Assembly: GCA_022457155.1 (NCBI GenBank)
Contig: JAJGOT010000200.1
Location: 744,001 to 808,000, forward strand
Direction: 5' to 3'
Length of the DNA: 64,000 nucleotides
Source: Cladopsammia gracilis
Taxonomy: Eukaryota > Cnidaria > Anthozoa > Scleractinia > Dendrophylliidae
In this document: positions 1 through 62,918 of the stretch, piece by piece
Position numbering within the stretch: position 1 is the stretch's first letter
Layout: each line of letters opens with the position of its first letter
The notes under the pieces: model-generated
The model's input: the letters and a program-made list of their open reading frames with translations, nothing else
The model's database searches: none
Told to the model about the DNA's origin: nothing
Program-made: the position numbers and the translations under genes

Positions 1-89
1 GCTACGATTTTGAAAGTGTGCCAGAACCCTTCTTCTATATCTACTACTTTTTTTCCCCTCATATTGACCACAAAAAAACATACCATTTT
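1..89. repeat. Left terminal inverted repeat of the Polinton (inner part)
   Basis: Bases 1-89 match the reverse complement of 19098-19185 with a single one-base indel (an extra C at about 47). Weaker similarity continues inward to about 150. The first 44 bases occur again, in the same orientation, at 19448-19491. The repeat probably continues to the left of the window. Confidence 0.92.
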
Positions 90-224
90 GGTGAGAAAAT
101 TTCACTCTGGATGACCTCAGGAAAATTCTGTCGCCGGCGATGGCAAAAAAAAAAAAATTCCACTCTGGGAAAATCTGGGTGGAATTTTTTCTCAAAGGGG
201 GAAAAATTCTCTTCCGGCAAGAAA

Positions 225-782
225 ATGTCTGATTCCGAAGAAGAAGAAATCGATTTCACGCCTGAAATTATTCGAGAAATCCGCACAACATGGCAATCTC
301 ACAAAAATCCCAGGCTGGAACATTTCAAAAATATCATCCGCAAAAATCAGGGGAAAAATCAAATTCCACTCAAAGATCTCGAATTTTATCAAGAACAAAT
401 TCTCTCCCAAATTCCCCGTGACGAAATCACAAGAAAAAAAGTCCGGGATTTCGTCAAAGTTTCCAAGTGGAAAAAAGTCAATGGCAACGATCATACAATT
501 TTTAATCACATAACAGGTCACGACGGGGATGATTATGAACACCTGGAAAAATTCCTCATTGACGACTTTAAATATTTTTCACTGGCATATGATGACCTTC
601 ATCCCAGCAGAAAAAAGTTTCTCAATTGCCACCAAGTTCTTTTCGCCCTGTTGAAGAAGAATGGTTTCAATCCAAATGAAGATGATTTCAAACTGCTCAA
701 ACTTCCATCCAGACGGGCGGAACAAGAAAAAATAATCCAAACAATCTTCAAAAAATGTCATTGGAAAGAAAATGGATCTTGA
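225..782 (+). CDS. VLTF3-like late transcription factor (putative), 185 aa
   Basis: The start is the ATG at 225, just inside the left inverted repeat; an upstream in-frame ATG at 18 would translate the repeat itself. The C-terminal third (residues 120-180) has an R-K-x-F-L block at 129-133, followed by a V-L pair, an F-x-L-L-K motif near 155-159, an E-Q pair at 166-167 and a final C-H-W at 178-180. The N-terminal part has an H-F...Q-G segment at 33-43. This order resembles the poxvirus/NCLDV late transcription factor VLTF3 (A2-like). No N-terminal zinc finger is visible. Inferred role: activator of the element's late genes, consistent with the shared start motif of those genes. The next gene overlaps it by 11 nt. 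The assignment rests on motif pattern only. Confidence 0.5.
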   Translation: MSDSEEEEIDFTPEIIREIRTTWQSHKNPRLEHFKNIIRKNQGKNQIPLKDLEFYQEQILSQIPRDEITRKKVRDFVKVSKWKKVNGNDHTIFNHITGHDGDDYEHLEKFLIDDFKYFSLAYDDLHPSRKKFLNCHQVLFALLKKNGFNPNEDDFKLLKLPSRRAEQEKIIQTIFKKCHWKENGS

Positions 783-1122
783 GAAAGTATTTTCCAATGA
801 AGCCGAGCGAAGCGACGCGAGTGACCATGAAGATTGTTCCACATGTTCAGAGGAAGAAATAAGAAGCGACGATGAAACTCCGACAACATCGGATGATGAA
901 TTTATTGTGTCTGATTCAGAGATGGCGGAAGTTGAGGAAGAGGAGTGGCGAGACGATGAAATTGAAAAACTTTTTGAATCTTTTGCCAATCTCCAGGAGG
1001 AACACGAGATTCTCAAAAAGGAACACAAGATTCTCAAAAAGGAACTCCAAAAGCAAAGCGGTCTTCTCTGGGAAATCCGCCGGGAAATGAACGAAAGCCA
1101 AGCGAAACGAAAGCGCCGCTAA
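772..1122 (+). CDS. Acidic coiled-coil protein, 116 aa, function unknown
   Basis: ATG at 772 overlaps the stop of the preceding gene by 11 nt, suggesting coupled expression. Residues 1-65 are very rich in D, E and S. Residues about 70-100 form a leucine-heptad coiled coil with a duplicated segment (E-H-E-I-L-K-K repeated as E-H-K-I-L-K-K), and the C-terminus is basic (KRKRR). No catalytic motif is visible. An acidic region plus coiled coil plus basic tail would suit a transcription co-activator or DNA-packaging accessory, but this is a guess from composition. I do not recognise the family. Confidence 0.6.
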   Translation: MDLEKVFSNEAERSDASDHEDCSTCSEEEIRSDDETPTTSDDEFIVSDSEMAEVEEEEWRDDEIEKLFESFANLQEEHEILKKEHKILKKELQKQSGLLWEIRREMNESQAKRKRR

Positions 1123-1509
1123 GCGGTGTTTTGAAATAACAGACTTTGTGAATATTAATGTGAAACATTCATATTCTGACACGCCAACGCAATCTGTCAT
1201 TTTGAAATCGCCAGGTGACATTCTCGGAAAGCTGAATAAATTTTCTCAGAATAACTCGCCACTTCACGTGCCCACACACGCCTGCAGGTCCATTGTCTTT
1301 TTTGGCTTCTTTTGTCCGGCGCGTGCTACTTATCTGCCTACAATAAATGTTCACGTGAAAGACAATAGATTTCATTCCACACTTCCCTAACAACCCGAGT
1401 CGCTGAAGCTCAACACAAAAATTATTTTTGGCTCAGCCTGTCGATAGGGAAGTGTGGAATGTTTTGACGTCATATGTCTGGGAAGTGAATCATCACAAGA
1501 AACCAATGG
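1123..1509. other. Convergent intergenic region of the Polinton
   Basis: This 387-bp stretch lies between the plus-strand gene ending at 1122 and the minus-strand integrase ending at 1510. It holds the palindrome at 1373-1461. An 80-aa open frame at 1148-1390 has no recognisable features and crosses the palindrome arm, so I do not call it a gene. Confidence 0.6.
1373..1461. terminator. Perfect 17-bp inverted repeat, putative bidirectional terminator
   Basis: Arms at 1373-1389 and 1445-1461 are perfectly complementary (17 bp) with a 55-nt loop. The position between convergent genes matches two other palindromes in this element (11224-11246 and 13876-13902), each also at a convergent junction. 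A role in 3' end formation is inferred from position only. Confidence 0.5.
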
Positions 1510-2472
1510 TTAAGATAGCTTTTCCACATCGCTCAGTGGAACCCAAGAATTAAATTTGTCAGGGTAACTTTTCCATTTTACAAGCGCGAGTTTTCGCTTA
1601 TTATCGCGGCGCAGAACCTTTTCAATGCGAAACACATCTTGCGTTGTTCTTTGCAATTCTGCCTCGTAAAATGATCCAGTGATTGATTCTCCCAACAGAT
1701 CGACTAATCGGTACGTTACAGGGTTTGTGTTCTTTATTTCGTCAATCACAAATATCTCCTCTGTCCAATTCGGTGTGAAACCTTTGTCAAATAATTGCCG
1801 TTTAAACTTTGAAATTCTCACCCTGTCGCCAACCCTGAATTTTGCCGGGTTGTGTTTAGCATAAATTAAATCTCCGTATAAATTAGCGAAAACCTTTTTC
1901 TCATTTTCCTGCTTGCTCGCCTCTGCGGGAGTCATGGCAATGCTCGAATGAAAACGGTGGTTATATTCATCCAGTAATTTGCCAAGTTTGTCCCAGTATA
2001 TTGTATTGTTGTTCTCGCTAAACATTTTAAAGAGTTTCTCCTTAAAAGACCTGTTCCAGCGCTCAACAACAGATGCCTTTTCTTGATTTTCCGTTGTATA
2101 CAATTTTACCCCATTCTCGCTCAGGAGGGCCTTCATTATTCCATTGAAAAATTCAGACCCTTTGTCAGTCCAGAGCATTTTCGGTTTTCGTCCCTTGAAT
2201 ATATCTCGGAAAGCATCAGCCACTGTTTGACCTCGTTTGTCTTTCAGGGGACGAATCCAACCGAATTTTGAGAAAACATCGATCACCATCAGCAGGTATC
2301 TGATTCCCTTGTTCCACCTCGAAAATTTCCCCATCTCGACCAGATCAGCCGCCCAGATGTTGTCAATCCCATACGCAATGACTCGCCTCTTTGGAAAGCG
2401 CCGCCTGATTGGCCGGTGGAGTTTATTTGCCAGATTTTGAGCCCACCGACCTTCACTCAAAATCTTTTCCCG
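1510..2472 (-). CDS. Polinton integrase, DDE (rve) with C-terminal chromodomain; reached by -1 frameshift
   Basis: Retroviral-type integrase that inserts the element DNA in the host nucleus. Numbered from an in-frame ATG at 2607, the catalytic triad is D88 (W-A-A-D-L), D148 (W-T-D-K-G) and E182 (V-V-E-R-W); the chromodomain is at 326-365 (V-L-R...V-K-W-K-S-Y-P...W-V-P). Homology begins only at about residue 47. Residues 1-45 of that ATG-initiated frame are the out-of-frame shadow of the upstream PLA2-like gene, so I place the functional start at 2472, where a -1 shift at AAAAAAC enters this frame. No N-terminal HHCC zinc finger is seen in frame. The protein resembles the family typified by the C. 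elegans transposon-derived protein F54H12.3. Alternative: initiation at the ATG at 2607, giving a junk N-terminus. Confidence 0.9.
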   Translation of the reverse strand, partial: REKILSEGRWAQNLANKLHRPIRRRFPKRRVIAYGIDNIWAADLVEMGKFSRWNKGIRYLLMVIDVFSKFGWIRPLKDKRGQTVADAFRDIFKGRKPKMLWTDKGSEFFNGIMKALLSENGVKLYTTENQEKASVVERWNRSFKEKLFKMFSENNNTIYWDKLGKLLDEYNHRFHSSIAMTPAEASKQENEKKVFANLYGDLIYAKHNPAKFRVGDRVRISKFKRQLFDKGFTPNWTEEIFVIDEIKNTNPVTYRLVDLLGESITGSFYEAELQRTTQDVFRIEKVLRRDNKRKLALVKWKSYPDKFNSWVPLSDVEKLS

Positions 2473-2478
2473 TTTTTT
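2411..2478 (-). promoter_or_regulatory. -1 ribosomal frameshift signal 2 (PLA2-like to integrase): A AAA AAC plus H-type pseudoknot
   Basis: Read on the minus strand. The heptamer A AAA AAC (2478-2472) lies in the zero frame of the PLA2-like ORF. A 6-nt spacer follows (2471-2466). Stem 1 is a perfect 10 bp, AGATTTTGAG (2465-2456) with CTCAAAATCT (2441-2432). The 14-nt loop contains GGTCGGTGG (2451-2443), which pairs with CCACCGGCC (2419-2411) through 9 bp with one G-U. Loop 1 is 4 nt and loop 3 is about 12 nt. An overlapping C CCA AAA heptamer is also in phase. The -1 frame is exactly the integrase frame, and the PLA2 stop lies 13 nt past the heptamer. Known: this geometry is that of coronavirus and retrovirus frameshift sites. 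Function here is inferred. Confidence 0.82.
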
Positions 2479-3116
2479 GGGGCACCGAGGCCCAGTTTTT
2501 GTTTTGCTTGAATTGTGTTTCTCGCCAAAGCATGACCCCACTGTCTTTCTTTCCAGGGAATGGCATCCAAAGCGGCAACCATTTTCCTGTCTGCTTTGTT
2601 TTTGCATTTGCGCGGATCCGCTTTCTTCGCGCAGACTGAATAATCCACATCGTGCTGCATAGCAACTGCGTCTGTTTTTCCTGTGGGCTGCTGCATAATT
2701 TCGAGAATCTTTCCCTTTTCATCAAATCTGACTTGCTTTTCGAGTGGGTTCCAGGGGCCGGTATAATTATGTCCAGGCAAAGTGAAACCTTTCTTTGGTC
2801 TTGGCAGCTTCCCAATCAGGGAATGAACATCTAAAGCACCCCCATCCAAATCTGCTCGATCTGTTTTATATTTTCTGTTTGGTCGTATCGCCGTACTCAG
2901 TTGATTGAGCATATCCGCAGAGGTTTTGGCAAGAAATGGTTTCATCTTGTCCAGGGCAAAATCCAATGCTTTTTTCTGAGTGTTTTTGTTTCGCAGCAGT
3001 TCGCTTGCTCCATAACGACCCATTTCAACTGTTTTTTTCCCGAGCCAGGGAAGAGCATGAGCCACGCCAGTCAGCGCAAGTTCACCAATGCCCTCACCTT
3101 GTGAGGGCCGACTCAG
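2457..3116 (-). CDS. Phospholipase A2-like domain protein; reached by -1 frameshift
   Basis: Contains a PLA2-like core: a calcium-loop motif Y-T-G-P-W-N-P-L and, about 30 residues later, the catalytic H-D-V-D-Y, then C...C and an A-D-R-K-M helix. This is the short form known from parvovirus VP1 and from adintovirus/Polinton virion proteins, where it breaches endosomal membranes during entry. The open frame runs from about 3218 but has no ATG before an internal Met near 3023, so the natural entry is the -1 shift at GGGAAAC (3122-3116) from the upstream zinc-ribbon ORF. A sequence L-D-G-G followed by A at 2849-2835 matches the adenain cleavage consensus and lies just before the enzyme domain. 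The frame ends 13 nt after the second slippery site, so terminating ribosomes make this form and shifted ribosomes add the integrase. Confidence 0.85.
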   Translation of the reverse strand: MSRPSQGEGIGELALTGVAHALPWLGKKTVEMGRYGASELLRNKNTQKKALDFALDKMKPFLAKTSADMLNQLSTAIRPNRKYKTDRADLDGGALDVHSLIGKLPRPKKGFTLPGHNYTGPWNPLEKQVRFDEKGKILEIMQQPTGKTDAVAMQHDVDYSVCAKKADPRKCKNKADRKMVAALDAIPWKERQWGHALARNTIQAKQKLGLGAPKNGKRF

Positions 3117-3122
3117 TTTCCC
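3090..3122 (-). promoter_or_regulatory. -1 ribosomal frameshift signal 1 (zinc ribbon to PLA2-like): G GGA AAC plus hairpin
   Basis: Read on the minus strand. G GGA AAC (3122-3116) is in the zero frame of the zinc-ribbon ORF, with the zero-frame TGA stop immediately after (3115-3113). A 7-nt spacer TGAGTCG (3115-3109) leads to a perfect 8-bp GC-rich hairpin: GCCCTCAC (3108-3101), loop AAG, GTGAGGGC (3097-3090). The -1 frame is that of the PLA2-like ORF. GGGAAAC is the gag-pro slippery heptamer of Mason-Pfizer-type betaretroviruses. Function is inferred. Confidence 0.8.
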
Positions 3123-3265
3123 GAACTTTTCACAAATCTTGTTTTCTTGATTCCGCAGGAAGCGCAATGGCAAAACCACATCTTTCTTCCATTTTTTGCG
3201 GTCATATATCCAGATGGCTCAACACATTCAGTTTGTTTTTTTTCCTTCACGCAATATGACTTCAT
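3113..3265 (-). CDS. Small zinc-ribbon protein (DUF5679-like), 50 aa
   Basis: ATG at 3265 lies one codon after the protease stop and in the same frame (TGA AAA ATG). The 50-aa product has a first half-site Y-C-V at residues 4-6, a conserved T-A-K-N-G-R block at 22-27, a C-x-C-x-x-C-G knuckle at 32-38 and a basic end. It resembles the DUF5679 zinc ribbon often found at the N-terminus of PLA2-like proteins in cnidarian Polintons, although the usual second cysteine of the first knuckle is a glutamate (residue 8). The stop codon follows directly on a GGGAAAC slippery heptamer, so the ORF is both a stand-alone peptide and the presumed N-terminus of the PLA2-like and integrase products. Too short for most gene finders. 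Confidence 0.72.
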   Translation of the reverse strand: MKSYCVKEKKQTECVEPSGYMTAKNGRKMWFCHCASCGIKKTRFVKSSGN

Positions 3266-3268
3266 TTT

Positions 3269-3703
3269 TCAATCGAAATATTCTTTTATGAATCTTTCAT
3301 TAAACCTGGTATCAGTCAGACTGAGAGGCTGGAGAATATCATAGAAATCTTTCCCCTGCGACCATTGATGGAGGAAATAAAGGCAATAATACCCGCAAAG
3401 AACGCTGTTGATGTTTTGATACTGACTGCTGTTCCAAATCACCGGTTTGGAACTTTTGAATTCCTGGGGAAATCCCATCCCAAAAGAGTCGAAATACCAC
3501 GTGAATTTTTTCCCCGGAGCGCAGCACACCCAGTGAGTTCCTGCATTTTCAAGCGAATCAAGATTGATGATGCAGGGGCTGTGTTCTCGGGGCCTCGCTT
3601 CATCCCTGGTGAAAATCCCTTTGAAATTGGGAATTTTCAGAAAATCAATCCACTGGAGAAGATCAAGGTTGCTCAGGGGTTTGTTCACGAATTTGGTTTT
3701 CAC
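3269..3703 (-). CDS. Adenain-type cysteine protease (maturation protease)
   Basis: Family C5/ULP-like protease that processes virion proteins. Visible active site: H57 (G-T-H-W-V-C), D72 (W-Y-F-D-S-F-G), oxyanion Q near 94-96, and C103 in V-L-C-G-Y-Y-C. The length of 144 aa is at the short end for the family but covers the catalytic core. The frame has no ATG near its start; the first possible codon here is a GTG at 3703 overlapping the TGA of the upstream core-like gene, and the frame stays open further upstream. It may therefore be expressed as a -1 fusion to that gene (weak candidate signal at 3721-3774), by non-AUG initiation, or by termination-reinitiation. The stop is followed by AAA ATG of the zinc-ribbon ORF in the same frame. 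Confidence 0.9.
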   Translation of the reverse strand: MKTKFVNKPLSNLDLLQWIDFLKIPNFKGIFTRDEARPREHSPCIINLDSLENAGTHWVCCAPGKKFTWYFDSFGMGFPQEFKSSKPVIWNSSQYQNINSVLCGYYCLYFLHQWSQGKDFYDILQPLSLTDTRFNERFIKEYFD

Positions 3704-4539
3704 AATATTGCCCCGAGAATTGGGATGTTGTTGAATGGACTTTTCGATCCCAGCAGAAGTCCCGTTCCTTTTTTGGATTTTTTTCCCATCCCTTTTTTCC
3801 AGCTGCCCACAAATGGAGGAGGTGGATTCAACGCGTGATATAGGGAAGGAGCTCCCAATCTTGGCGCACCTTTTCCTTTGTGGCGACCAACTCTAGGAGC
3901 GCCTTTTCCTTTGGGGCGACCAACTCTTGGTGCGCCTTTCCCAAACAAATTTTTCACCATGTCCAGCGCCAGTGGAATTCCGATGGAAGCCAGAATTGTT
4001 CCCAATGCCCCACCAGATTGTTTTGCTGATGGTTTTATCGTCAGTTGTCCTCCTGATTTCAGGGCAGTCAAAATATCCTGTTTCTGCTTATTTGTCAACA
4101 AATGTTTATTGTCAATCAGTTTCTGAATTTTATCTTGGGGAATGAGAAATCCGCCCGTTTGCCCGCTCCCGCTTATCTTTTTCACGACTTGACTCGCTCC
4201 TTCACTCGCCAAACCAGCCAATGCTGACAATCCAAGTGTCTTTGCCAGGGTGGGTGCCAGGGAACGAGCCAGGGGAACAATAGCAGAGAAAAGACTTCCA
4301 CCCTGCCGCATCACTTTTCGGATTTGCGTTTTCGATATCTTGATTTCAACTCCCTTTCCCAAAGCCACAGCTTTGCCGATTCGTCTTATTTGATTTGCCG
4401 TGAGCCACAGTTCATCATTTCCGCTTGTTTGTTTGCCATCCAATCTCAGGGTGATAGGGCTTTTTGTTCGGAATGCTCTTCCAAGCTTGCTTTTTTGCCC
4501 TTCCGACAGATTTACTTTATATGGGTGATATGTTGTCAT
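3700..4539 (-). CDS. Minor virion/core protein (adenovirus pVI/pX-like position), 279 aa
   Basis: Starts at the ATG at 4539, preceded by ATTTAAA; an upstream TTG at 4551 is less likely. The basic N-terminal half contains N-Q-I-R-R-I and S-K-T-Q-I-R-K. A hydrophobic, Ala/Leu-rich amphipathic segment spans about 83-120, then G-Q-T-G-G-F-L-I-P-Q-D-K-I at 126-138, a second hydrophobic stretch at 178-196, three tandem K-G-A-P-R repeats at 201-228, and a C-terminus with G-L-L-L-G and S-P-F-N-N-I-P. Two sites, I-S-G-S before G126 and L-F-G-K before G202, fit the adenain consensus (M/I/L)xGx-G. The gene lies between capsid protein and protease. Proteins of this type are commonly seen next to adenain in cnidarian Polintons. 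A role as membrane-lytic or DNA-condensing virion component is inferred. Confidence 0.72.
   Translation of the reverse strand: MTTYHPYKVNLSEGQKSKLGRAFRTKSPITLRLDGKQTSGNDELWLTANQIRRIGKAVALGKGVEIKISKTQIRKVMRQGGSLFSAIVPLARSLAPTLAKTLGLSALAGLASEGASQVVKKISGSGQTGGFLIPQDKIQKLIDNKHLLTNKQKQDILTALKSGGQLTIKPSAKQSGGALGTILASIGIPLALDMVKNLFGKGAPRVGRPKGKGAPRVGRHKGKGAPRLGAPSLYHALNPPPPFVGSWKKGMGKKSKKGTGLLLGSKSPFNNIPILGAIL
3721..3774 (-). promoter_or_regulatory. Weak candidate -1 frameshift signal (core-like protein to protease)
   Basis: Minus strand: the zero frame reads AAA AAA at 3774-3769, preceded by C, so the heptamer is C AAA AAA rather than canonical. A 6-nt spacer follows, then stem 1 GGACTT (3762-3757) with AAGTCC (3742-3737), and a loop segment TGGGAT (3752-3747) that can pair with ATCCCA (3726-3721). 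The -1 frame is the protease frame. Canonical heptamers GGGAAAA and AAAAAAA lie upstream at 3787-3778 in phase, but are too far from this structure. Confidence 0.3.
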
Positions 4540-4568
4540 TTTAAATGACAAGATATGTTTTTCACTCC

Positions 4569-5846
4569 CTACACGATAACCAGCTCATTTCCAATCTTAT
4601 CGATTTTCACTTCTTCTTCATAGAGAACTATCGCATGAACATTGAAGTTGTCAGTTGCATCTGCGCTCAATCGATACCTGAATATCAGCTGCTTGGGATC
4701 TCTTGTTGGTTTTTCCGTTTGATAAGTCAGATCGAAATAGATCAACGGGAAAAGAGAATTGTAATTGGCCAGATTCAACTGTGTTCCAGTGTTGTAGTCA
4801 TTTTTCCTCATTGCATAAGCCATGACATCCTGGAAAATCCTCACTTTGCTTTCACTGTCATACTCTGTTTCCGGGTAGAAAACTCCGTTTCCATATTCCA
4901 GCCGGCAGTTCGACAAGGATGAGTTTGCATCTGCCTCATTCAGCTTGAAAGTGTCCATCAGATAGGGATTGTCTTCTGCAGGGGCGCCAGCGGTTCTTTT
5001 CAGCCAGACAAAAATATGCCTCACATTGTCAATGCTCGCTGAGATCTGGAAGAATCCTGATGATCTTGCGGGAGCAGATTGCTGATACATTTCCCTCAGA
5101 TATTTCCATTGCGATTCTTTCAGGAATGAGCTGACAAATTTGTCATACAGAGAATCTTTGGGAGTCAATCTGGGGACCCAAAGCAACAACCTATTCACAA
5201 CAACTCTTCCAGCAGCAGTGCCGTTTGCCATATGAATGAGTTCCCCATCATCTTGAAGAGTTATCTCGAATTGCAGCTGCATGGGAACCAACATCTTATC
5301 TTCCAACTCTTCGAAAAAGGAAAAACGATTCAGGGGAATGATCGTGTTAATGTTCTTTGCACCGCCATTTCCATCGTCTGCCACTGCTTGAGATTGCACC
5401 CGCCGAGCTTCAAATCCAAGATTTGTATTAGCGGTTGTTACATCAGTATCCAAATACCAGAAACTGTTCTTGGCGACTGATCTGCTGAAGTCGTCGGAGT
5501 ATTCTAACAAATTCTTTGTGAAACAGACCTGGTGCAGATTATCAGTATCATAAATAATCTTTCCCGCAGATTTTATCGTCAGGTGTTTAATCAGGGAATG
5601 AGCTCCATTGATCACTGTGATTCTGTCAGCTGCGGCATACCCAGCGCCGTTTGCTATTTTCTGGAGTTGAAACTGCACCTCGAAATAAGCGTTATACCAA
5701 TCATAGAATGCGGATCGGTCATTAATTGTGAATTTATAACCACTTTTTTGTTGATGTTGCCCATTAGCTGGAGCCCGGATTGTGTCATCCAGCTGGAAGC
5801 GCACTAATTCATTTCTTTGAAGATATTCATTCGATCGAAAAGCCAT
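4569..5846 (-). CDS. Major capsid protein (double-jelly-roll hexon-like), 425 aa
   Basis: Forms the icosahedral shell. The N-terminus is M-A-F-R-S-N-E-Y-L-Q, followed by a long beta-rich sequence with repeated short strands and no signal peptide, ending in V-H-A-I-V-L-Y-E-E-E and a hydrophobic tail. It resembles the Polinton/adintovirus capsid protein family represented by C. elegans F54H12.2, whose neighbour in that genome is the same type of integrase. The start ATG at 5846 sits in ATTTAAAATG, in which TAA is the stop of the upstream 128-aa gene. It is a single uninterrupted frame without internal stops. Fold assignment comes from family knowledge and gene order; a structure prediction would settle it. 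Confidence 0.85.
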   Translation of the reverse strand: MAFRSNEYLQRNELVRFQLDDTIRAPANGQHQQKSGYKFTINDRSAFYDWYNAYFEVQFQLQKIANGAGYAAADRITVINGAHSLIKHLTIKSAGKIIYDTDNLHQVCFTKNLLEYSDDFSRSVAKNSFWYLDTDVTTANTNLGFEARRVQSQAVADDGNGGAKNINTIIPLNRFSFFEELEDKMLVPMQLQFEITLQDDGELIHMANGTAAGRVVVNRLLLWVPRLTPKDSLYDKFVSSFLKESQWKYLREMYQQSAPARSSGFFQISASIDNVRHIFVWLKRTAGAPAEDNPYLMDTFKLNEADANSSLSNCRLEYGNGVFYPETEYDSESKVRIFQDVMAYAMRKNDYNTGTQLNLANYNSLFPLIYFDLTYQTEKPTRDPKQLIFRYRLSADATDNFNVHAIVLYEEEVKIDKIGNELVIV

Positions 5847-5847
5847 T

Positions 5848-6234
5848 TTAAATCATTTTTTTTCTTTTTCGGATGCCTTGCCCAGAGATCAACCTGTTCA
5901 ATATGGCATCAGAACTTTCTCCGGAGGTTGACGCAGGGGGTGATTGTGGCTTTGTTTTGCCTGGTGGCTTCCCTTTTCTCATATTTCCCAGCTTTTTCAT
6001 GATCAAATCGCCAGATTTTTCAACTGCTTTTTTACCGAGTTTATCCCCAGCGTGAGAAATTCCTGATTCTAATGCTTTTTTCGCAATGGGTTTCGCGAAT
6101 TTATTGAAGACGACTGATGCGATCTTCCTCATTGGTTTGAAAATATTGTCCACAATCAAACCTGTTCCTTTGTGCCGGAAGACAAACCGCCCCAGCTGGG
6201 GGTGGAAAAAACGAGAGAATTCATAACTTTTCAT
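5848..6234 (-). CDS. Small basic virion-block protein, 128 aa, unknown
   Basis: ATG at 6234 overlaps the TGA of the penton-like gene (ATGA). The middle (about 30-80) is a basic amphipathic region rich in K, A, I and V (F-N-K-F-A-K-P-I-A-K-K-A), followed by a P/K/S-rich linker (about 85-108) and a basic C-terminus R-K-R-K-K. The stop overlaps the capsid gene's start motif. Position and composition suit a small virion-associated DNA-binding or membrane-active protein. No family was recognised. Confidence 0.7.
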   Translation of the reverse strand: MKSYEFSRFFHPQLGRFVFRHKGTGLIVDNIFKPMRKIASVVFNKFAKPIAKKALESGISHAGDKLGKKAVEKSGDLIMKKLGNMRKGKPPGKTKPQSPPASTSGESSDAILNRLISGQGIRKRKKMI

Positions 6235-7007
6235 TTTATTTGTTTTTTCAAGATAAGCGAGAACGCTGTATCAGCTCCATTCAAATCAACAACCCGCCTT
6301 TTGCCGTCAGTGATATAAATCCGAATGGAGCTTATTCTGTTTTTATTCACAGGGCTGAACATCACTCTCATGGGTTCAAGAGTGAAACTATAGGAGGCCT
6401 GCAGAACAGATGTTGAAAAGGAGAAGATGATATCACTCTCTTCCCCATCCACAAGTGAATCACTTGTGAGATCGCAATGCACGTTCAACATATCAGTATC
6501 TTGACTGAGGTTTGGAACTCTGGGGCCAATGTTGACTTTGTCTTTCAGAATCTTTTTATCGAAACCAATGAGATCGCCAAAGTTGGATTTCTCGAGATCA
6601 AGTTGCCAGTTTGTTTCCAGCGTGATTGTTACTCTGAAAGTTGTGGGAGAGAAAGCAAGATTGATTGGGAATTTTTCATTCTTTCCTGGGGTGGATCCTA
6701 CGAGGGGGCCTGTTGCGTTTCGAATTGCCGCATTCAAAGTGGAATAATCCCAAACCCCAGCGGGAAAGGTGATATCGGAAAATGTTTTCCCACCGTCAGA
6801 GCTGAATCTGATCAGCTGATTTTTCAATGCCGCATTGATGTTATACCACGTAAAACTCATATTGATAATTCTGTTCAACCCAACAACATATTGGGAATTT
6901 GGATCCAAAGCAATGGGCCGATTGAATTTTGTTGTGAAATTTTCTGGTTTGTTTCCCCCAGTCTTGACGGAAAAAGATGACAGGACAATTTCTCTTTCGA
7001 TTTCCAT
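6231..7007 (-). CDS. Minor capsid protein, penton-like (single jelly roll), 258 aa
   Basis: Expected to form capsid vertices. Start at ATG 7007 (M-E-I-E-R-E-I-V-L); an upstream in-frame start at 7043 would overlap the preceding gene. The sequence is beta-rich with alternating hydrophobic strands, an N-terminal S-S-F-S-V-K-T motif, a central Y-V-V-G-L-N-R-I and the C-terminal V-D-L-N-G-A-D-T-A-F-S, typical of Polinton/adintovirus penton homologues. The stop TGA overlaps the next ATG. The upstream gene's TAA overlaps this gene's TCTAAAATG start context. Confidence 0.8.
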   Translation of the reverse strand: MEIEREIVLSSFSVKTGGNKPENFTTKFNRPIALDPNSQYVVGLNRIINMSFTWYNINAALKNQLIRFSSDGGKTFSDITFPAGVWDYSTLNAAIRNATGPLVGSTPGKNEKFPINLAFSPTTFRVTITLETNWQLDLEKSNFGDLIGFDKKILKDKVNIGPRVPNLSQDTDMLNVHCDLTSDSLVDGEESDIIFSFSTSVLQASYSFTLEPMRVMFSPVNKNRISSIRIYITDGKRRVVDLNGADTAFSLILKKQIK

Positions 7008-7008
7008 T

Positions 7009-8013
7009 TTAGAGTTTGAAATACTTTCTGAAAAGCTTCTCATGCTGGGAACGATTGATGACTCCCTCTTTCAGGAGAAGATCGAGAATGCCAACTCCAG
7101 TATTTCTGATTCCCTGATTCGTATTCCCAGCACGAATGGAGCCAACAATGATCTCAAGTTTCTGGAGGAGATCTGCGGGGTTGGAGAAAAAACGGATGGA
7201 TCCGCCCCTTCTGCCGACACCCGATCCTTTAGATGACTTGAGTTTCCCTCTATAATATTTCATGTAGTCATTCACTACTTTTCTGTCAGCCATTATTGGC
7301 TTTACTGTCGCAGCCAATACCTCTGCCGTTATTTTACCTTTTTTGAATTTATTGTTATGATAGCTGATGCGGCTGTTCAGTTGGTCTCTTTTTTTTAAAG
7401 CCGGCTTTATAATGCTGATTTCAATGAAATTTTTTTTCTTTTCTACCGGAACCTTTGGCTCAGCTAAGACTTTCTCCGTTGTGTCATAATTTACTAAACC
7501 CATGTTATCTAACATGTTATTAACTGCGTCTTCTTGAGCGCCTTCCTCGTCTCCCGCCGCTTCCGCTTCTTCCTCTTCTTCTTCCATAGCATAATCAGGA
7601 ACGCTCTCTTCATATTCCAATGGTTCACCTTCTAACTCTGCCAATACTTCTTCATATGTTGGCGGTCTTGGTGGATGTTGCTTAGCTGCTTGCGGTGCAA
7701 CAGCTGCCTCATCCGCATCAAATAAGCCTTCAACATCCATCTCTTCAAATGGGTCGACTTCGGGGAGATAATCAATTTCTGTTGGTTTGGCCCTACGTTT
7801 CAAGGCCTTCGGCTTTTTCCGGGGAAGTGGGCCCAAATTCGACGCAATCACCTCATCCAATTTCGCTGTGACTGGATTGAACATTTTTTCAAACCCAATT
7901 TGACTTGTCTCTTCACCCAACTTTTTCTGGGTGATGACATCATGAACAAAGTTGATTTTTTTACCCAAAGCAGATTTGCTTTTAGCAATTTCTTGCCATT
8001 TCAATAAACTCAT
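7009..8013 (-). CDS. Structural/accessory virion protein with PPxY late-domain motif, 334 aa
   Basis: First gene of the minus-strand late block; start ATG 8013 in TTAATAAAATG. Layout: basic helical N-terminus (1-75), a proline-rich segment with the late-domain motif P-P-T-Y at 117-120 (nt 7654-7665) followed by an acidic tract with a run of glutamates near 145-160, a basic helical region (about 190-265) and a compact C-terminal helical domain (I-R-A-G-N-T-N...L-L-L-K-E-G-V-I). PPxY motifs recruit Nedd4-type ubiquitin ligases; adenovirus pVI and penton base carry them. The C-terminal domain resembles a conserved but unnamed Polinton protein. Function in assembly or intracellular transport is inferred. 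Confidence 0.68.
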   Translation of the reverse strand: MSLLKWQEIAKSKSALGKKINFVHDVITQKKLGEETSQIGFEKMFNPVTAKLDEVIASNLGPLPRKKPKALKRRAKPTEIDYLPEVDPFEEMDVEGLFDADEAAVAPQAAKQHPPRPPTYEEVLAELEGEPLEYEESVPDYAMEEEEEEAEAAGDEEGAQEDAVNNMLDNMGLVNYDTTEKVLAEPKVPVEKKKNFIEISIIKPALKKRDQLNSRISYHNNKFKKGKITAEVLAATVKPIMADRKVVNDYMKYYRGKLKSSKGSGVGRRGGSIRFFSNPADLLQKLEIIVGSIRAGNTNQGIRNTGVGILDLLLKEGVINRSQHEKLFRKYFKL

Positions 8014-8028
8014 TTTATTAAGAATCAT

Positions 8029-8180
8029 AATCTCAGAATCTCAGAATCTCAGAATCTCAGAATCTCAGAATCTCAGAATCTCAGAATCTCAGAATCTCAG
8101 AATCTCAGAATCTCAGAATCTCAGAATCTCAGAATCTCAGAATCTCAGAATCTCAGAATCTCAGAATCTCAGAATCTCAG
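8029..8180. repeat. 8-bp minisatellite (AATCTCAG)19 in divergent promoter region
   Basis: Nineteen perfect, consecutive copies of AATCTCAG fill 152 bp of the 232-bp gap between the divergent start codons at 8013 (minus) and 8246 (plus). The array ends in degenerate copies (AATCTCAT). It lies where the promoters of both late transcription units must be. Confidence 0.95.
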
Positions 8181-8245
8181 AATCTCATTCTCATAATCTT
8201 ACAAGTTGCCACATATCAAGAAGAACGTTATCTTCTCTTTTAAAA

Positions 8246-8878
8246 ATGAAAATCCCAAATTATGATTGTCAGGATCCAATCACGAATTTCCGACAACGTT
8301 ACCCTTTCATGCCGGATCGAACTTTCAGGATGTTGATCTGTGGCCCTTCAGGATCGGGGAAAACAAATGTTCTCCTGGATATGATTTTCCGCCTGCTCTT
8401 CTACGATAAAATTTATCTCTATGCGAAAAATCTTGACCAAACCAAATATCAGCATCTGCTGAAAACGTTTCGCCCAATCAGCAAAGAAGCGGGGTATGAC
8501 GTTGTGGAAGCATCCCCGGATGAAATCATCCCAGTTTCTGAATTGTCAGGGGAGAATCAAAAGCTGGTTGTTTTCGATGATTTTGTTTCCGAAAAAAACC
8601 AAAAGCCATTGATTGATTATTTCATTCAGGGCAGGCACAAGAAATGTTCTGTGATTTATCTTTCGCAAAGTTATTTCGGAACACCAAAAGATATCCGCCT
8701 GAATTGCTCGCATTTTTGCATCTTTGAATTCCCTAGCAACAAAGAAGTCTCAGCGATCTGCCGGGAGAATAATGTCAGCAAAGAAGATTATCGGAAAGCA
8801 ACAGCGCAGCCCTTCTCTTTCCTGTATGTGGATAAGCCGAGGAAATTCATTGCCAAAAACTTTGATGAAAGCATTTAA
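8246..8878 (+). CDS. Genome-packaging ATPase (A32/FtsK-HerA type), 210 aa
   Basis: Pumps element DNA into the capsid. Walker A is G-P-S-G-S-G-K-T at 33-40, Walker B is L-V-V-F-D-D at 107-112, followed by the G-R-H region at 129-131 and a sensor-like S-Q-S-Y at 140-143. Length and motif spacing match Polinton and virophage ATPases. The start is ATG 8246 in TTTTAAAAATG; the frame is open upstream only because it runs through the 8-bp repeat. The stop TAA at 8876 is part of the start motif of the next gene (fiber-like). Confidence 0.92.
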   Translation: MKIPNYDCQDPITNFRQRYPFMPDRTFRMLICGPSGSGKTNVLLDMIFRLLFYDKIYLYAKNLDQTKYQHLLKTFRPISKEAGYDVVEASPDEIIPVSELSGENQKLVVFDDFVSEKNQKPLIDYFIQGRHKKCSVIYLSQSYFGTPKDIRLNCSHFCIFEFPSNKEVSAICRENNVSKEDYRKATAQPFSFLYVDKPRKFIAKNFDESI

Positions 8879-8879
8879 A

Positions 8880-10676
8880 ATGAGTTATTCAAATGGACTG
8901 CTTTCTGAAACAAGCAACTCCCAGGGAGGAAAAGGACGAGATGGAAAAGATGGATTGCCAGGAGTTGGTTTCAAGCTGACGCCGGCAGGGGACTTCGACC
9001 TGCAAAGGAAACGCCTGACCAATATCGCTGAAGGAACGGGGAATTCGGATGCAATTACCAAACACCAAGTTGACACGCTTGCAACGCAATTGCGAGCAGA
9101 TTCTCTCCAGGTGGATGGTTCCTCGCATATGACTGGGGATCTTGATCTCAGGGGACAAAAACTCATCAACCCCGGGGAAATAGAAATGAATCGCAAATTG
9201 ATCGTCAATCTGGACACTGATGAAGACAACGATTTGTCAGCGGTGAATATGGTCACTCTGAAAAAATTCCACCCTGATGCTCCGGCTCCCACTCATGAAG
9301 TCACGAAGGACCTGGATTTGAAAGGACTTTTCAACGTGAAAAACTCAAAACAGCAAACATGGCATGATTTGGGAGCGCATTATAACAACCTGATCTCTTA
9401 CAATGACACCAAAAATATCTTTCTCAGCCGCAAAGAGACGTTTCCAATGGAGACGGCTTTGGATATGGGAAATCACACCATTTTTAACGTGAAAGATCCC
9501 GAAGTTGCCGATCAGGGCGCAAATAGGCGATATGTGGATGCCCAATCCGCGAAAAAACTTTCGTTGGAAGGTGGAACAATGACTGGAAACCTGGATATGA
9601 ACTCGCAACAAATCAACAACATCTTAACGCCAACTCTGAAGCGACAACCCACGCCAAAATCTTATGTGGATAACCAGATAGGAGGTGTGGTAGCCCACAC
9701 GATGGAATTAGAAGAAAAACTTAAAGAATATGTCAATGAATCGCATATCACGTCAACCTCTCACCCAAAGGACGCATTCCGCTATCTGATGGAAAATGTG
9801 GATGAATCCAGCTCTGAACATCATATGACAGTGACTGGGATAAGTGATTTTCCAGATTCGCCGCATCATTTCAACAAGAAGGCTTATGACTTGGAAATCA
9901 CAAAAGATCTTTTAAATGAATACTCTGGGAGACTTGGATTCAATATGTTCAAACTCCCAGAGGGAGAATACACGATTTGCATTGAATTCTTCCCCGCGGC
10001 AATGGATGGCGTGAGCGTCAACGTTGTGAGCACAAGTCTGAATATCAATCAGCAATCAACTAAGAAGTTTTCGGGGTATTCCAGATCCATCATCCACATG
10101 CACAAATGGAGGATTTCCCCACCTGAATTCATTTTCCTGGATTTGAAATGGAGAGGAACTGCCGAGTCAGCCGAAAAAGGAAACGCAAAGCTGATCATAT
10201 ATGGCATTGCTGGTTCTCAACCTGATGTTGAAAGCAGCGTCTTCGATTCCCCTTTCGTTTTTGAGGGCGGGAAGATGGTCATGGAGGCTGACTTGGATTT
10301 GAATGGCCACAAATTGCTCAATTCAAATTTGAAGAACAATTTCATGCTGATTGGAAGATTTAGAAAAGCATCTGGAGACGCCATAAATATACTTTTTGAT
10401 AATTTTTTCAATGATATAGTCATCCCCATCCGATGCAAATTAATTAAAGCATATGCTCAAATTTTATCGAAAACATCTTCTTTTCCACAACTGACTTTAT
10501 ATCTCCCAGATAAAGAATCACAAAGTGGAACGAGGGTTAGCAGAGATAATAGAATTCAATTATTTTCTTTTTCAAATGTTGTTTATAAGGAAGGAGAATT
10601 ATTTTCAGCAAGAATACATGATCGATCATTGAATATTGGGACTGCCCAAGTCACATTTCTTTTTGAAATTATCTAG
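8880..10676 (+). CDS. Fiber/spike-like protein with collagen-like segment, 598 aa
   Basis: Likely the receptor-binding surface fiber. Residues about 16-31 contain Gly-x-y triplets (G-G-K-G-R-D-G-K-D-G). The shaft has recurrent units with D-L-D-L or N-L-D-M followed by G/N-x-K/Q-L/I-I/L-N (for example at about 82, 230 and 466), as in triple-beta-helix phage tail fibers. The C-terminal ~90 residues are beta-rich and AT-rich (from about 10380) and could form a head domain. ATG 8880 lies in ATTTAAAATG, overlapping the ATPase stop. The lower GC of the distal third than of the shaft suggests exchange of the head module (inference). Confidence 0.72.
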   Translation: MSYSNGLLSETSNSQGGKGRDGKDGLPGVGFKLTPAGDFDLQRKRLTNIAEGTGNSDAITKHQVDTLATQLRADSLQVDGSSHMTGDLDLRGQKLINPGEIEMNRKLIVNLDTDEDNDLSAVNMVTLKKFHPDAPAPTHEVTKDLDLKGLFNVKNSKQQTWHDLGAHYNNLISYNDTKNIFLSRKETFPMETALDMGNHTIFNVKDPEVADQGANRRYVDAQSAKKLSLEGGTMTGNLDMNSQQINNILTPTLKRQPTPKSYVDNQIGGVVAHTMELEEKLKEYVNESHITSTSHPKDAFRYLMENVDESSSEHHMTVTGISDFPDSPHHFNKKAYDLEITKDLLNEYSGRLGFNMFKLPEGEYTICIEFFPAAMDGVSVNVVSTSLNINQQSTKKFSGYSRSIIHMHKWRISPPEFIFLDLKWRGTAESAEKGNAKLIIYGIAGSQPDVESSVFDSPFVFEGGKMVMEADLDLNGHKLLNSNLKNNFMLIGRFRKASGDAINILFDNFFNDIVIPIRCKLIKAYAQILSKTSSFPQLTLYLPDKESQSGTRVSRDNRIQLFSFSNVVYKEGELFSARIHDRSLNIGTAQVTFLFEII

Positions 10677-10679
10677 AAA

Positions 10680-11222
10680 ATGAGAGCGAGAGAAGCGACC
10701 GAAGGGAGCCACGGAGTGGCGAGCCGAGCGAAACCCACGCGAAAACAAAGCATTTTTGCTTTCAATCACATCCACCCCGCAATTCGGGAAGAAGAACTGG
10801 AAGAGATCAAAAAACTTTTTCGATTTTATCACAAAAGATTTTGGTGTCTGAAACGAGCGCATGGTCGATTCAAGAAAATGAATCTGCTCATAAATTTGAT
10901 CTCTTCCGGCCTGGTTGCAATCGGGACGATTGCTGGAGCCGCGACTTTGAACCCAATCGTTTTGGGAGTGATTTCAGGAGCGGGATTAGTTTTGAAAACA
11001 GCGAATGAAATGAAGAATCTGAAAAGCAAAATTGAGATGGCGAAATTCGCTTTCACCACCTATGAAAAAACATTGAGTGATTTGCGCTTCGCTTTGCGGG
11101 GAGGAAATTTTGATCGAGCTGAATTTTTGTTTTCAATGGAAGCGATTGATGGGATTGTGATTGATTTGGGGTTAGATTTGGAAAAGTTTGAAGCTGAATG
11201 GGAGAAAAAATTTGAGGGTTGA
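10680..11222 (+). CDS. Membrane protein with hydrophobic hairpin, 180 aa
   Basis: ATG at 10680 follows the fiber stop by 3 nt. After a basic N-terminus and an amphipathic helix (about 38-60), residues 63-100 form a long Gly/Ala-rich hydrophobic region (L-I-S-S-G-L-V-A-I-G-T-I-A-G-A) that could be two short membrane segments joined at N-P. A charged helical C-terminus with coiled-coil character follows. No signal peptide. Proteins with this layout occur in cnidarian Polintons; a role in membrane interaction or egress is inferred. The first ~20 codons derive from a repetitive GC-rich stretch (GCGAGAGAAGCGACCG) resembling that near 800-820. Confidence 0.65.
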   Translation: MRAREATEGSHGVASRAKPTRKQSIFAFNHIHPAIREEELEEIKKLFRFYHKRFWCLKRAHGRFKKMNLLINLISSGLVAIGTIAGAATLNPIVLGVISGAGLVLKTANEMKNLKSKIEMAKFAFTTYEKTLSDLRFALRGGNFDRAEFLFSMEAIDGIVIDLGLDLEKFEAEWEKKFEG

Positions 11223-11223
11223 G

Positions 11224-11246
11224 TTTTCATTTCCCGGAAATGAAAA
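11224..11246. terminator. Perfect 11-bp palindrome between convergent genes
   Basis: TTTTCATTTCC (11224-11234), one central C, GGAAATGAAAA (11236-11246). It begins 2 nt after the stop of the membrane-protein gene and 26 nt before the end of the convergent gene, matching the pattern at 1373-1461 and 13876-13902. Confidence 0.5.
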
Positions 11247-11271
11247 ATCATGCAAGAAATCAGGGGAAAAT

Positions 11272-11850
11272 TTATTTGAATTTCCTGATTTTATTGAATA
11301 TATCAACGTGAAATGTTCTTTCATTTTTCCTCAAAGATGGGACAAATGACAATCGTTTCAAGGGTTGAAAATCTTTTTTTCCCATCTTCTCCTCCAGTTC
11401 TGCTAGGGCTTTCTCTTTGTTCACCTGAAAAGCCACTCTGCAGATGATGGAAATGATTTTGATGAAACAAACGGTTTCATCATTATATTTCAATTCTTTT
11501 TTCTTCCAGTCCAATTCGAGATCTTCATCCGCGAATAATTTATTCGTAATCATTCGACAAAGTTCATCAAAAGATGAAACAGCGATCTTGAATTTTTCAA
11601 ACCATTCCTCATCCATTGGGAGTGAAGAAAAATCGATTTCGCAAGAAAGTTGTGAATCTTCCGCTTTTGGTTCGCCGAGGAAGAATTTTTTCTTGTCCGA
11701 CCTCCGGGTGATGGTTGAGTTATTCTTTTTCAATGCATTGACGATTGCGCAATTTGAGATTCCATATTCTTTTGCCGCGGAATTGATGGAAGTGAAATTT
11801 TTGGTTTTTTTCCCATCGGAGATTGAAAAATGCGTTGCTGATTTCGACAT
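11272..11850 (-). CDS. HTH (NUMOD1-like) domain protein, 192 aa
   Basis: ATG 11850. Residues 15-60 have the pattern F-T-S-I-N-S-A-A-K-E-Y-G-I-S followed by a second helix and a K-K-F-F-L strand, resembling the NUMOD1/IENR helix-turn-helix module of homing endonucleases and viral regulators. The remaining 130 residues are helical with no catalytic motif. It shares the HTH module with the gene at 14786-15274. A sequence-specific DNA-binding regulator is the likeliest role (inference). Confidence 0.62.
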   Translation of the reverse strand: MSKSATHFSISDGKKTKNFTSINSAAKEYGISNCAIVNALKKNNSTITRRSDKKKFFLGEPKAEDSQLSCEIDFSSLPMDEEWFEKFKIAVSSFDELCRMITNKLFADEDLELDWKKKELKYNDETVCFIKIISIICRVAFQVNKEKALAELEEKMGKKDFQPLKRLSFVPSLRKNERTFHVDIFNKIRKFK

Positions 11851-13640
11851 TTTTTATGTGGAGAAAAAAAGGAAATAAAAAATTAAAATCCCATTTTATC
11901 TGGATAAAACTCAATTTTAACCAATCATTTCGTCAATTTAGTTAACTGAGTTTTAGCTGATTTGGGGAGAATCTTTTCTTGAATTGCCATTTTCCACTGA
12001 TTTTCAGCGAAAGATTTTCATCCCCGGAGAGATTTTCATCTCAAAATCCGTTTTCAGGGAGATTTTTCATCCCAAATCCATTTTTGTGGGCGTTTTTTCG
12101 TTCTGAAATCTATTTTTTGGAGAGATTTTTCATTCCCCCGGACATCCCTTCATATATTAATTTGGAAAAAAAAAAAATTTGGAAAAAAAATATTCCTCCA
12201 AATAATATGGGAGGAATGCTCCGGAGGAAATTTCATTCCAAAATCAGTTTCCGGAGGATTTCATTTTCATTTTCCGGAGGGATTTCAATTCAAATTCTGG
12301 AGGGGTTTTCATTTTCCGGAGGCATTTTCATTTTTCTGGAAGGTATTTTCTGCTCCAGAAAAATCCATTTTTCCGGAGGCATTTTCTGCTCCAGAAAAAT
12401 CCATTTTTTCCGGAGGCATTTTCATTTTCATTTTCCGGAGGGATTTCATTTTCATTTTCCGGAGGAATGTCAAATTCAAATTCTGGGGGGGTTTTTCATT
12501 TTCCGGAGGCATTTTCATTTTCATTTTCCGGAGGGATTCCAAAATTCAACAGTTTTTATGCTGAGAAAAGGGGAAATAATACATTAAAAATCCCATTTTA
12601 TCTGGATAAAACTCAATTTTATCCAATCATTTCTCCAATTTAGTTAACTGAGTTTTAGCTGACATGGGCAGAAAAATTTCTTGGCTTTGAATTTTCCGCT
12701 GATTTTCAGCGGAAGATTTTCAAACCCCGGAGAGATTTTCAATCCCCGGAGGATTTTCATCCCAAAATCCGTTTTTGGGGGTGATTTTTCATTACAAAAT
12801 CCGTTTGGGGAGATTTTTCATCCCCCCGGACATCCCTTCATTTATAAATTTGGAAAAAAAAAATTTGGAAAAAAATTTTCCTCCAAATAATATGGGAGGA
12901 ATGCTCCGGCGAATTCAGGGGGTCAAATTCATTTTTCTGGAGCAGATATTTTTTCCAGAATTTAAATTCATTTTTCTGGAACAGATATCTGCTCCAGAAA
13001 AATCAAATTCATTTTTCTGGAACAGATATTTTTTCCAGAAAATTCAAATTCGTTTTTCTGGAACAGATAGTTTTTCCAGAATTTAAATTCATTTTTCTGG
13101 AACAGATATCTGCTCCAGAAAAATCAAATTCATTTTTCTGGAGCAGATATTTTTTCCAGAAATCAAATTCATTTTCAAATTCATTTTCAAAATCATTTTC
13201 CGGAGCAAATGTACGTGGAAAATCTGCGCTCCAGAAAAATCCATTTTTTCTGGAATAGATATCTACTCCAGAAAAATCCATTTTTTCTGGAATAGATATC
13301 TGCTCCAGAAAAATCCATTTTTTCTGGAAGGCATTTTCTGCTCCAGAAAAATCCATTTTTCTGGAAGGCATTTTCTGCTCCAGAAAAATCCATTTTTTCT
13401 GGAATAGATATCTGCTCCAGAAAAATCCATTTTTTTTTTTCTGGAATAGATATCTGCTCCAGAAAAATCCATTTTTTCTGGAAGGCATTTTCTGCTCCAG
13501 AAAAATCAATTTTTTTCTGGAATAGATATCTGCTCCAGAAAAATCCATTTTTTCCGGAGGGGTTTTGAAATTCAAAATGCATTTTCCGGAGGGGATTCAT
13601 TTTCATTTTCCGGAGTGGAAAATTTCCCCTGAGGAAAAAA
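11851..13640. repeat. Repeat-dense 1.8-kb noncoding region of the Polinton (duplication plus palindrome array)
   Basis: No convincing gene. A direct duplication is present: 11883-12228 and 12586-12910 share a ~75-bp A+T block containing TAGTTAACTGAGTTTTAGCTG and then a series of short repeats. The interval 12230-12540 is made of TTTTCCGGAGG...ATTTTCATTTTC units. From 12920 to 13560 about 14 units carry TCTGGAA/GCAGATA...CTCCAGAAAAAT in alternating inverted form, e.g. the near-perfect palindrome at 12971-13002 centred on AGATATCT. Open frames here (rich in F, W, S, R, Y) are translated repeats. It lies upstream of divergent genes and could be a replication origin, enhancer or packaging region (inference). 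Confidence 0.85.
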
Positions 13641-13655
13641 ATGATTGGAAAGAAA

Positions 13656-13862
13656 ATGCCTTCAAATTCAAATGCGAAAAGAAAAAAACTGAGTGAAAGT
13701 GACGACGAAATTGATTCCATTGACCTGCTGATGGAAAGCTATGTGAATTTGGAAAAGTGGGTTGAAGAGATTGCCGCAGATATGAAAAAACAAACTGAAT
13801 TGTTTGAGAAAATGATGACTGAATCAACTCATTGCAAATTCTGCGAATCTGCACAAATCTGA
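13656..13862 (+). CDS. Small acidic/coiled-coil protein, 68 aa, unknown
   Basis: ATG at 13656 (an alternative in-frame ATG is at 13641). After a basic K-R-K-K-L segment come an acidic S-D-D-E-I-D-S-I-D block, then a heptad-patterned helix (L-E-K-W-V-E-E-I...M-K-K-Q-T-E-L-F-E-K-M), and a C-terminal C-x-x-C. It is the only non-repetitive frame after the palindrome array, and the palindrome at 13876-13902 follows its stop. Could be a small regulator. Not recognised. Confidence 0.5.
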   Translation: MPSNSNAKRKKLSESDDEIDSIDLLMESYVNLEKWVEEIAADMKKQTELFEKMMTESTHCKFCESAQI

Positions 13863-13875
13863 AAAAAAGTTCTGC

Positions 13876-13902
13876 CTTTTCCAGAATTGAATTCTGGAAA
13901 AG
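13876..13902. terminator. Perfect 13-bp palindrome between convergent genes
   Basis: CTTTTCCAGAATT (13876-13888), central G, AATTCTGGAAAAG (13890-13902), between the plus-strand stop at 13862 and the minus-strand stop at 13927. It is the third convergent junction of the element marked by a perfect palindrome. Its TTCCAG/CTGGAA core resembles the array just upstream. Confidence 0.5.
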
Positions 13903-13926
13903 ATTTTCTCCCTGATTTCAGCGAGA

Positions 13927-40669: not shown

Positions 40670-62918
<22,249 letters not shown>

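Follow-up and report, generated by a model that had tools for sequence, protein, structure and literature searches.

How an integrase can be produced from a reading frame with no start codon at its head is the question raised by a Polinton in the coral Cladopsammia gracilis. This element forms the first ca. 19.2 kb of the DNA analysed here, a stretch of 64,000 nucleotides hereafter called the window (assembly GCA_022457155.1, contig JAJGOT010000200.1, positions 744,001 to 808,000 of the forward strand), and its ends are marked by inverted repeats. On its minus strand, a frame encoding a phospholipase A2 (PLA2)-like domain overlaps an integrase frame, and a first-pass annotation of the window had proposed that the two are joined by a -1 frameshift signal with an H-type pseudoknot. 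Comparison of the junction across copies of the element supports this interpretation, and a second signal was identified upstream. The Polinton thus very probably uses tandem programmed -1 ribosomal frameshifting, leading from a zinc-ribbon protein to the PLA2-like protein and from there to the integrase, a conclusion based on the comparison of position, phase, lack of ATG at the junctions, conservation, and pair-preserving changes. The features of the PLA2/integrase junction, hereafter site 1, are as follows.

2457..3218 (stop to stop), minus strand: PLA2-like frame, 254 codons (Phospholip_A2_4, E 2.2e-9)
1510..2718, minus strand: integrase frame (rve and chromodomain), -1 relative to PLA2
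2472..2478, minus strand: slippery heptamer A AAA AAC, in PLA2 phase (sequence; kept in 97/100 copies)
2457..2459, minus strand: TGA stop of the PLA2 frame, within stem 1 (sequence)
2455..2465, minus strand: pseudoknot stem 1, 5' arm (pairing at offsets 10-16 present in 94-97 of the 97 copies)
2432..2442, minus strand: pseudoknot stem 1, 3' arm (complementarity and copies)
2443..2451, minus strand: pseudoknot stem 2, 5' arm (complementarity and copies)
2411..2419, minus strand: pseudoknot stem 2, 3' arm (complementarity and copies)

The PLA2 frame reads CCA AAA AAC GGG AAA AGA TTT TGA at the junction, where A AAA AAC and a second heptamer, C CCA AAA (2475-2481, minus strand), overlap and are the only in-phase slippery heptamers of the 254 codons. 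The spacer GGGAAA separates A AAA AAC from stem 1 by 6 nt. Stem 1 (AGATTTTGAG/CTCAAAATCT) comprises 10 Watson-Crick pairs and a closing U.G, and stem 2 (GGTCGGTGG/CCACCGGCC) nine pairs, one being G.U; based on complementarity in the window and in the four families of copies described below (A to D), the two stems interleave with short loops into an H-type pseudoknot spanning 2465-2411 (minus strand). The heptamer, its phase, the 6-nt spacer and the two stems of 10 and 9 bp announced by the first-pass annotation were thus all found in the sequence, as was the -1 position of the integrase frame (2718-1510 versus 3218-2457). The sole ATG of this frame ahead of the integrase core, at 2607, falls within the PLA2 overlap.

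Such an arrangement is rarely reached by chance. Candidate structures were given a stem score, a plain sum of the stacking energies of the best H-type pseudoknot starting 4-10 nt past a heptamer. Dinucleotide shuffling reached the score of site 1 once in 100,000 trials, and synonymous redrawing of the codons in the integrase frame four times in 100,000. The window has 1,082 slippery heptamers on its two strands; only a long palindrome (39921) scored better, and A AAA AAC tied with the overlapping C CCA AAA. Folded alone, stem 1 is stable (z -3.93). Searches against Rfam gave no match at site 1 or at the upstream site 2, and 37 weak matches elsewhere in 1-20000.

The host assembly (878 Mb), the source of all DNA copies compared, contains many relatives of this junction. 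With up to three mismatches, the site 1 sequence occurs 440+438 times, as compared with 4+2 for a reversed control. Copies were picked independently of the signal, with the integrase codons for IWAADLVEM as an anchor, which was found at 548+534 places, hence at least 1,082; the first 100 listed were examined, 30 of them as three-kilobase loci. A AAA AAC with the -1 relation between PLA2 and integrase was present in 97 of the 100. The exceptions were a copy with the heptamer out of phase (L051), one with the stem sequences but no heptamer (L045), and one with no heptamer (L064), so that single-frame copies, or intact copies deprived of heptamer and stems, did not emerge as a pattern. From heptamer to anchor, the integrase frame is uninterrupted in all 97 copies, and in 43 of them it has an upstream stop with no ATG between this stop and the heptamer. 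The PLA2 frame ends with TGA in 91 copies, TAG in three and TAA in two, one having no stop; seven copies are decayed, with a PLA2-frame stop already upstream of the heptamer. Several family D integrase copies share a contig in two cases (G000:C82 and C162), as if in tandem or nested arrays.

Based on their anchor sequence, the 97 copies were divided into families A (66 copies), C (17), D (10) and B (4), which are 67-77% identical to one another over the last 84 nt and the anchor. The pseudoknot is retained in all four, with double changes that preserve pairs. In stem 1, offsets 10-16 are paired in 94-97 of the 97 copies, and A-T is replaced by G-C at offset 8 in family B, T-A by G-C at offset 10 in family C, and T-A by C-G at offset 12 in family B, where the pair is kept while the PLA2 stop and the NTG overlapping it are lost. 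In stem 2, GGCTGG faces CCAGCC or CCGGCC in 34 family A copies, GATTGG faces CCAATC in 21 copies of families B and C, and GACTGG faces CCAGTC in nine family D copies; between D and the B and C forms, the double change couples a Val/Ile replacement with an Asp codon that changes silently. The 3' arm of stem 2 in family A lies 4 nt upstream of its position in B to D, family C has a stem 2 of 10-11 bp, and the 9-bp stem 2 of the window is itself a variant form (CGGTGG, 4 of 66 family A copies). Where the scan found a knot with the full stem in families A, B and D, the spacer mostly measures 6 nt. When the 3' arm was slid by 1-3 nt, the paired share of stem 1 dropped to 5-56% in families A, B and D (93-100% in register) and to 20-36% in family C (71% in register). 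When six representatives were compared with their own shuffles, structures as good were found per 20,000 in 2 and 0 cases for A, 23 and 1 for B, 0 for C and 1 for D. Pair-preserving changes of this kind, seen at site 2 as well, indicate that the structures are under selection; the pairing is broken by sliding the partner arm, and only weakly by exchanging arms between families.

The signal at site 1 is not alone: upstream, a small zinc-ribbon open reading frame (ORF) adjoins the PLA2 frame at a comparable junction.

3113..3265, minus strand: zinc-ribbon ORF, 50 aa, with its own ATG (DUF5679, E 4.6e-8)
3116..3122, minus strand: slippery heptamer G GGA AAC (site 2), zinc-ribbon stop directly after it (31/31 copies)
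3090..3108, minus strand: hairpin GCCCTCAC/GTGAGGGC, 8 bp, 7 nt past the heptamer (69/20,000 shuffles as good)

The zinc-ribbon ORF ends as TCG GGA AAC TGA, and PLA2 lies in its -1 frame. The first ATG of the PLA2-like frame, at 3023, falls within the part conserved among relatives. In the sample used for this site (the 30 three-kilobase loci and the window, n=31), G GGA AAC followed by an immediate stop was invariant, with PLA2 in the -1 frame in 29 copies; a word search did not find a zinc-ribbon start in the frame in seven. In ten family C and two family B copies, a stop closes the PLA2 frame 3-6 nt ahead of the heptamer, and the zinc-ribbon stop comes right after it; in these 12 copies the shift must therefore fall at the heptamer, barring a new start. 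The hairpin also varies with its pairing kept (GCCCTCAC/GTGAGGGC, GCCCCCAC/GTGGGGGC, GCCCCCGC/GCGGGGGC and AGCCCGCTT/GGGCGGGCT), and family C has a different, longer stem. Among the 21 copies outside family C, pair 5 is TG (8), CG (8), TA (4) or GC (1), and pair 7 is AT (15), GC (5) or TG (1). The distance from heptamer to hairpin is 6-7 nt in 22 of the 31 copies, 3 nt in four and 9 nt in one.

Proteins predicted from other assemblies carry traces of the same junction. Among PLA2 relatives (120 listed of 1,793, plus the window; n=121), the anchor KxKLGLG is present in 120, and the tail contains K-N in 89, the preceding residue being codable by NNA in 88, and G-L-N in 28. After seven of the 120 were set aside as cut, long or fused, 54 distinct tails were compared, which are related to one another, so that their counts are not independent: K-N occurs in all 49 tails that do not belong to the G-L-N group; in 51 of 52, the residue following N is codable by GNN (Gly, Val, Ala, Glu; background 22%), and in 51 of 52 the one behind it by a codon with first base A (background 66%). 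At the amino acid following the heptamer, the variation falls on codon base 2, a third position when the sequence is read in the -1 frame (Lys-Lys-Arg). The tails thus vary as though translation ran in the -1 frame from the heptamer onward. T TTA AAC as the heptamer behind the GLN-ending tails was not confirmed, none of the four loci with this codon pattern inspected in the host assembly lying in a PLA2 gene. DNA relatives were sought in viral_contigs, with none confirmed, and no match was found in phages (protein) or E. coli. In more distant Polintons (L001-L004), whose integrases are 37-43% identical to the window type, the integrase is a single ORF with an ATG and, by inspection, an N-terminal stretch with no counterpart in the window type. 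The contigs of L001-L004 were binned into bacterial metagenome-assembled genomes (Ignavibacteria, Nomurabacteria, Limnohabitans), probably by contamination.

Several observations weigh against tandem frameshifting at these sites. The nested minimum free energy fold of the region, without the pseudoknot, is of ordinary stability (z -0.12), as is that of a shorter stretch (z -1.33). Family C has a spacer of 10 nt, outside the usual 5-9 nt, and a stem 1 of only 6-7 bp. By inspection, stem 2 of 27 of the 66 family A copies carries CAGTGG with an internal A.C mismatch; the scan prefers another, weaker knot in 26 of these and finds none in the remaining one, and it is empty in three further copies (L047, L068, L106). 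When arms are exchanged between families, stem 1 loses only 0-2.4 of its 11 pairs and stem 2 only 0-1.1 of its 6; foreign arms are equal or slightly better for C stem 1 with A or D and for A, B and C stem 2 with D, the contrast offered by this exchange being weak because wobble (G.U) pairs are allowed. At site 2, the scan is without the hairpin in four of the 31 copies, all of family C. Separate initiation could occur in the 54 of the 97 copies with an integrase-frame ATG within the PLA2 overlap and, for PLA2, in the 14 of the 31, all of family A, with an ATG of its frame within the zinc frame; in L088, one of the four family B copies, an ATG follows the junction by two codons. Finally, all copies come from a single assembly, and the 100 examined are the first listed rather than a random draw.

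Separate initiation also underlies the alternative that survives best, according to which the integrase is a protein of its own, started at the NTG overlapping the PLA2 TGA either directly, at this non-AUG codon, or by stop-restart, as occurs at AUGA in victoriviruses. Integrases of other assemblies are indeed called from about this place, with an M 11-13 residues before LHKP in 111 of the 120 listed (of 2,330), where the window reads TTG at about the same position. TTG overlaps the TGA in 91 of the 97 copies, and L088 adds its nearby ATG. A called M at the junction is no proof of an ATG, since the near-identical proteases P0246 and P0247 carry V and M at the same position, the gene caller seemingly writing M for non-ATG starts, and NTG is automatic wherever a -1 frame crosses a TGA. 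P0017 and P0095 do have a true M at the junction, inside longer frames. The idea that the window copy had lost an ATG at the junction was rejected for the host genome, in which the 97 copies read TTG (91), TCG (5) or TGG (1), and never ATG. Between heptamer and anchor, M occurs in four of the 97 copies, 33 residues on in three and nine in L088, and three of the four family B copies are without it. These four in-phase family B copies read TCG and have no overlapping stop, yet both stems are kept in them by double changes. As a restart would moreover leave the in-phase heptamer and its downstream pseudoknot unexplained, this alternative appears very unlikely.

The frames might also have been split by mutation or by an assembly error in the A-run, the working gene being single-frame or spliced. 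Homopolymers are error-prone, the DNA polymerase gene (PolB) of the window copy is broken, and two proteins, P0114 and P0242, which equally count in favour of tandem frameshifting, carry PLA2 and integrase in one frame, the PLA2 match of the former (E 0.0022) and the rve match of the latter (E 2e-5) being below Pfam cut-offs. This alternative, for which no search was aimed at introns, is hardly credible in view of the same -1 relation in 97 of 100 copies from four families, of stems preserved through double changes, and of separate PLA2 and integrase proteins being usual among the listed relatives of other assemblies. A further candidate, P0017 (522 aa), was rejected as a clean PLA2-integrase fusion; by inspection, it switches frame well upstream of the heptamer. 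Transcriptional slippage yielding edited mRNAs, for which A6 at site 1 and A7 at the candidate site 3 described below could be invoked, has next to no likelihood, as site 2 (G GGA AAC) lacks a long run and an RNA structure kept through pair changes better matches ribosome pausing.

Under tandem frameshifting, translation would start at the ATG of the zinc-ribbon ORF (50 aa). At the end of this ORF, G GGA AAC is bordered by the stop and followed 7 nt downstream by the stable hairpin, and some ribosomes would slip there by -1 into the PLA2 frame; at A AAA AAC, the H-type pseudoknot would pause ribosomes, and some of those already shifted would slip again into the integrase frame. The expected products are the zinc ribbon, zinc ribbon-PLA2 and, least abundant, zinc ribbon-PLA2-integrase. 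The slipping itself, its rates, the order of the products and the packaging of the integrase via a capsid-linked phospholipase are what we infer. The aim of such a programme might be to carry a small dose of integrase into the particle on this phospholipase, as Gag-Pol does. More tentatively, a retrovirus-like programme of two, perhaps three, -1 frameshifts could meter a zinc ribbon-PLA2 precursor and a rare integrase-bearing form, leaving the integrase particle-borne via a membrane-breaching phospholipase and ready for integration at entry, a scenario that we regard as possible without favouring it. The presence of LDGG or LDGxG ahead of the PLA2 domain (2849-2835, minus strand, in the window; 114 of 121 PLA2 proteins), which we take to match the cleavage consensus of the adenovirus protease (adenain), is consistent with a processed particle protein. 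The third shift would concern the protease of the element.

3700..4539, minus strand: ORF X, upstream of the protease (no Pfam match)
3269..3892, minus strand: adenovirus-like protease frame, no ATG before the core (Peptidase_C5, E 0.022, below cut-off)
3778..3787, minus strand: candidate site 3, G GGA AAA / A AAA AAA in ORF X phase, protease in the -1 frame (suggestive)

The -1 relation is kept here in copies where both frames were recognised. A third frameshift signal is not claimed, given that the heptamers vary, that the best structure, equalled in 92 of 20,000 shuffles, lies at a distance of 16 nt, and that some copies have a protease-frame ATG. The putative capsid ORF at 4569-5846 has no in-phase slippery heptamer.

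Two -1 frameshifts are known from retroviral gag-pro-pol of the mouse mammary tumour virus (MMTV) and human T-lymphotropic virus (HTLV) type. The Polinton resembles them in having -1 heptamers at two consecutive junctions, A AAA AAC among them, with structure downstream and the integrase in last place; it differs in being a double-stranded DNA element in which a zinc ribbon and a PLA2-like protein take the place of Gag and protease as upstream products, and no reverse transcriptase was seen among its ORFs. The catalytic domain of IS3-family insertion sequences is of the DDE type. As outlined in PMC5009743, a -1 frameshift joins OrfA and OrfB in this family, the upstream part being generally a DNA-binding protein. 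The trait shared with the present junction is a frameshift linking an upstream ORF with a catalytic domain that often lies in the -1 frame. The IS3 family is bacterial; the Polinton is a eukaryotic virus-like element, and its upstream protein is phospholipase-like. Within the same virus-transposon group, section 16 of a 2024 preprint (PMC11071296) proposes -1 frameshifting for the adintovirus penton and hexon-adenain, likewise from a -1 slippery sequence close to the 3' end of an ORF. Other genes are concerned, the proposal of that section is a KnotInFrame prediction without a covariation test, and the word PLA2 is absent from the main text (PMC11071296). The first-pass annotation, which knew of no recoding signal described in Polintons, is corrected by this earlier proposal; no comparatively supported signal for a Polinton was found in the openly licensed papers searched. 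Frameshifting would account for the production of an integrase whose head has no start codon and would hint at its route into the particle. The element would also offer a -1 frameshift system for studying pseudoknot evolution, its natural integrase copies numbering at least 1,082 in a single assembly. Such a signal further suggests that gene callers split these products and put start codons at the junction.

The assignment of the element to the Polinton/Maverick group relies on its terminal inverted repeats and gene content.

1..89, plus strand: left terminal inverted repeat (repeat pairing; start possibly before the window)
19098..19185, plus strand: right terminal inverted repeat (repeat pairing)

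Pfam matches comprise PolB, an A32-type ATPase, VLTF3, the rve integrase with its chromodomain and the PLA2-like domain, so that the terminal repeats, PolB (broken in the window copy), the rve integrase and the A32-like ATPase are all found; the remaining genes typical of the group, protease and capsid, are represented by the Peptidase_C5 match below cut-off and by putative capsid ORFs without a Pfam match. The PolB ORF (15316-18558, plus strand) resumes in a different frame at 18366-19034, the whole covering 15316-19034. Inside the Polinton, dense inverted repeats of TTCTGGAACAGATAT units occupy 12900-13560, the Rfam matches there all being below gathering scores. In the rest of the window, two 263-aa ORFs without Pfam match (27012-27803 and 36255-37046, minus strand) lie ca. 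9.2 kb apart, perhaps through duplication, and a BEL/Pao-like retroelement (Peptidase_A17, Integrase_H2C2, DUF5641) is split over two overlapping frames at 53856-57469 (minus strand).
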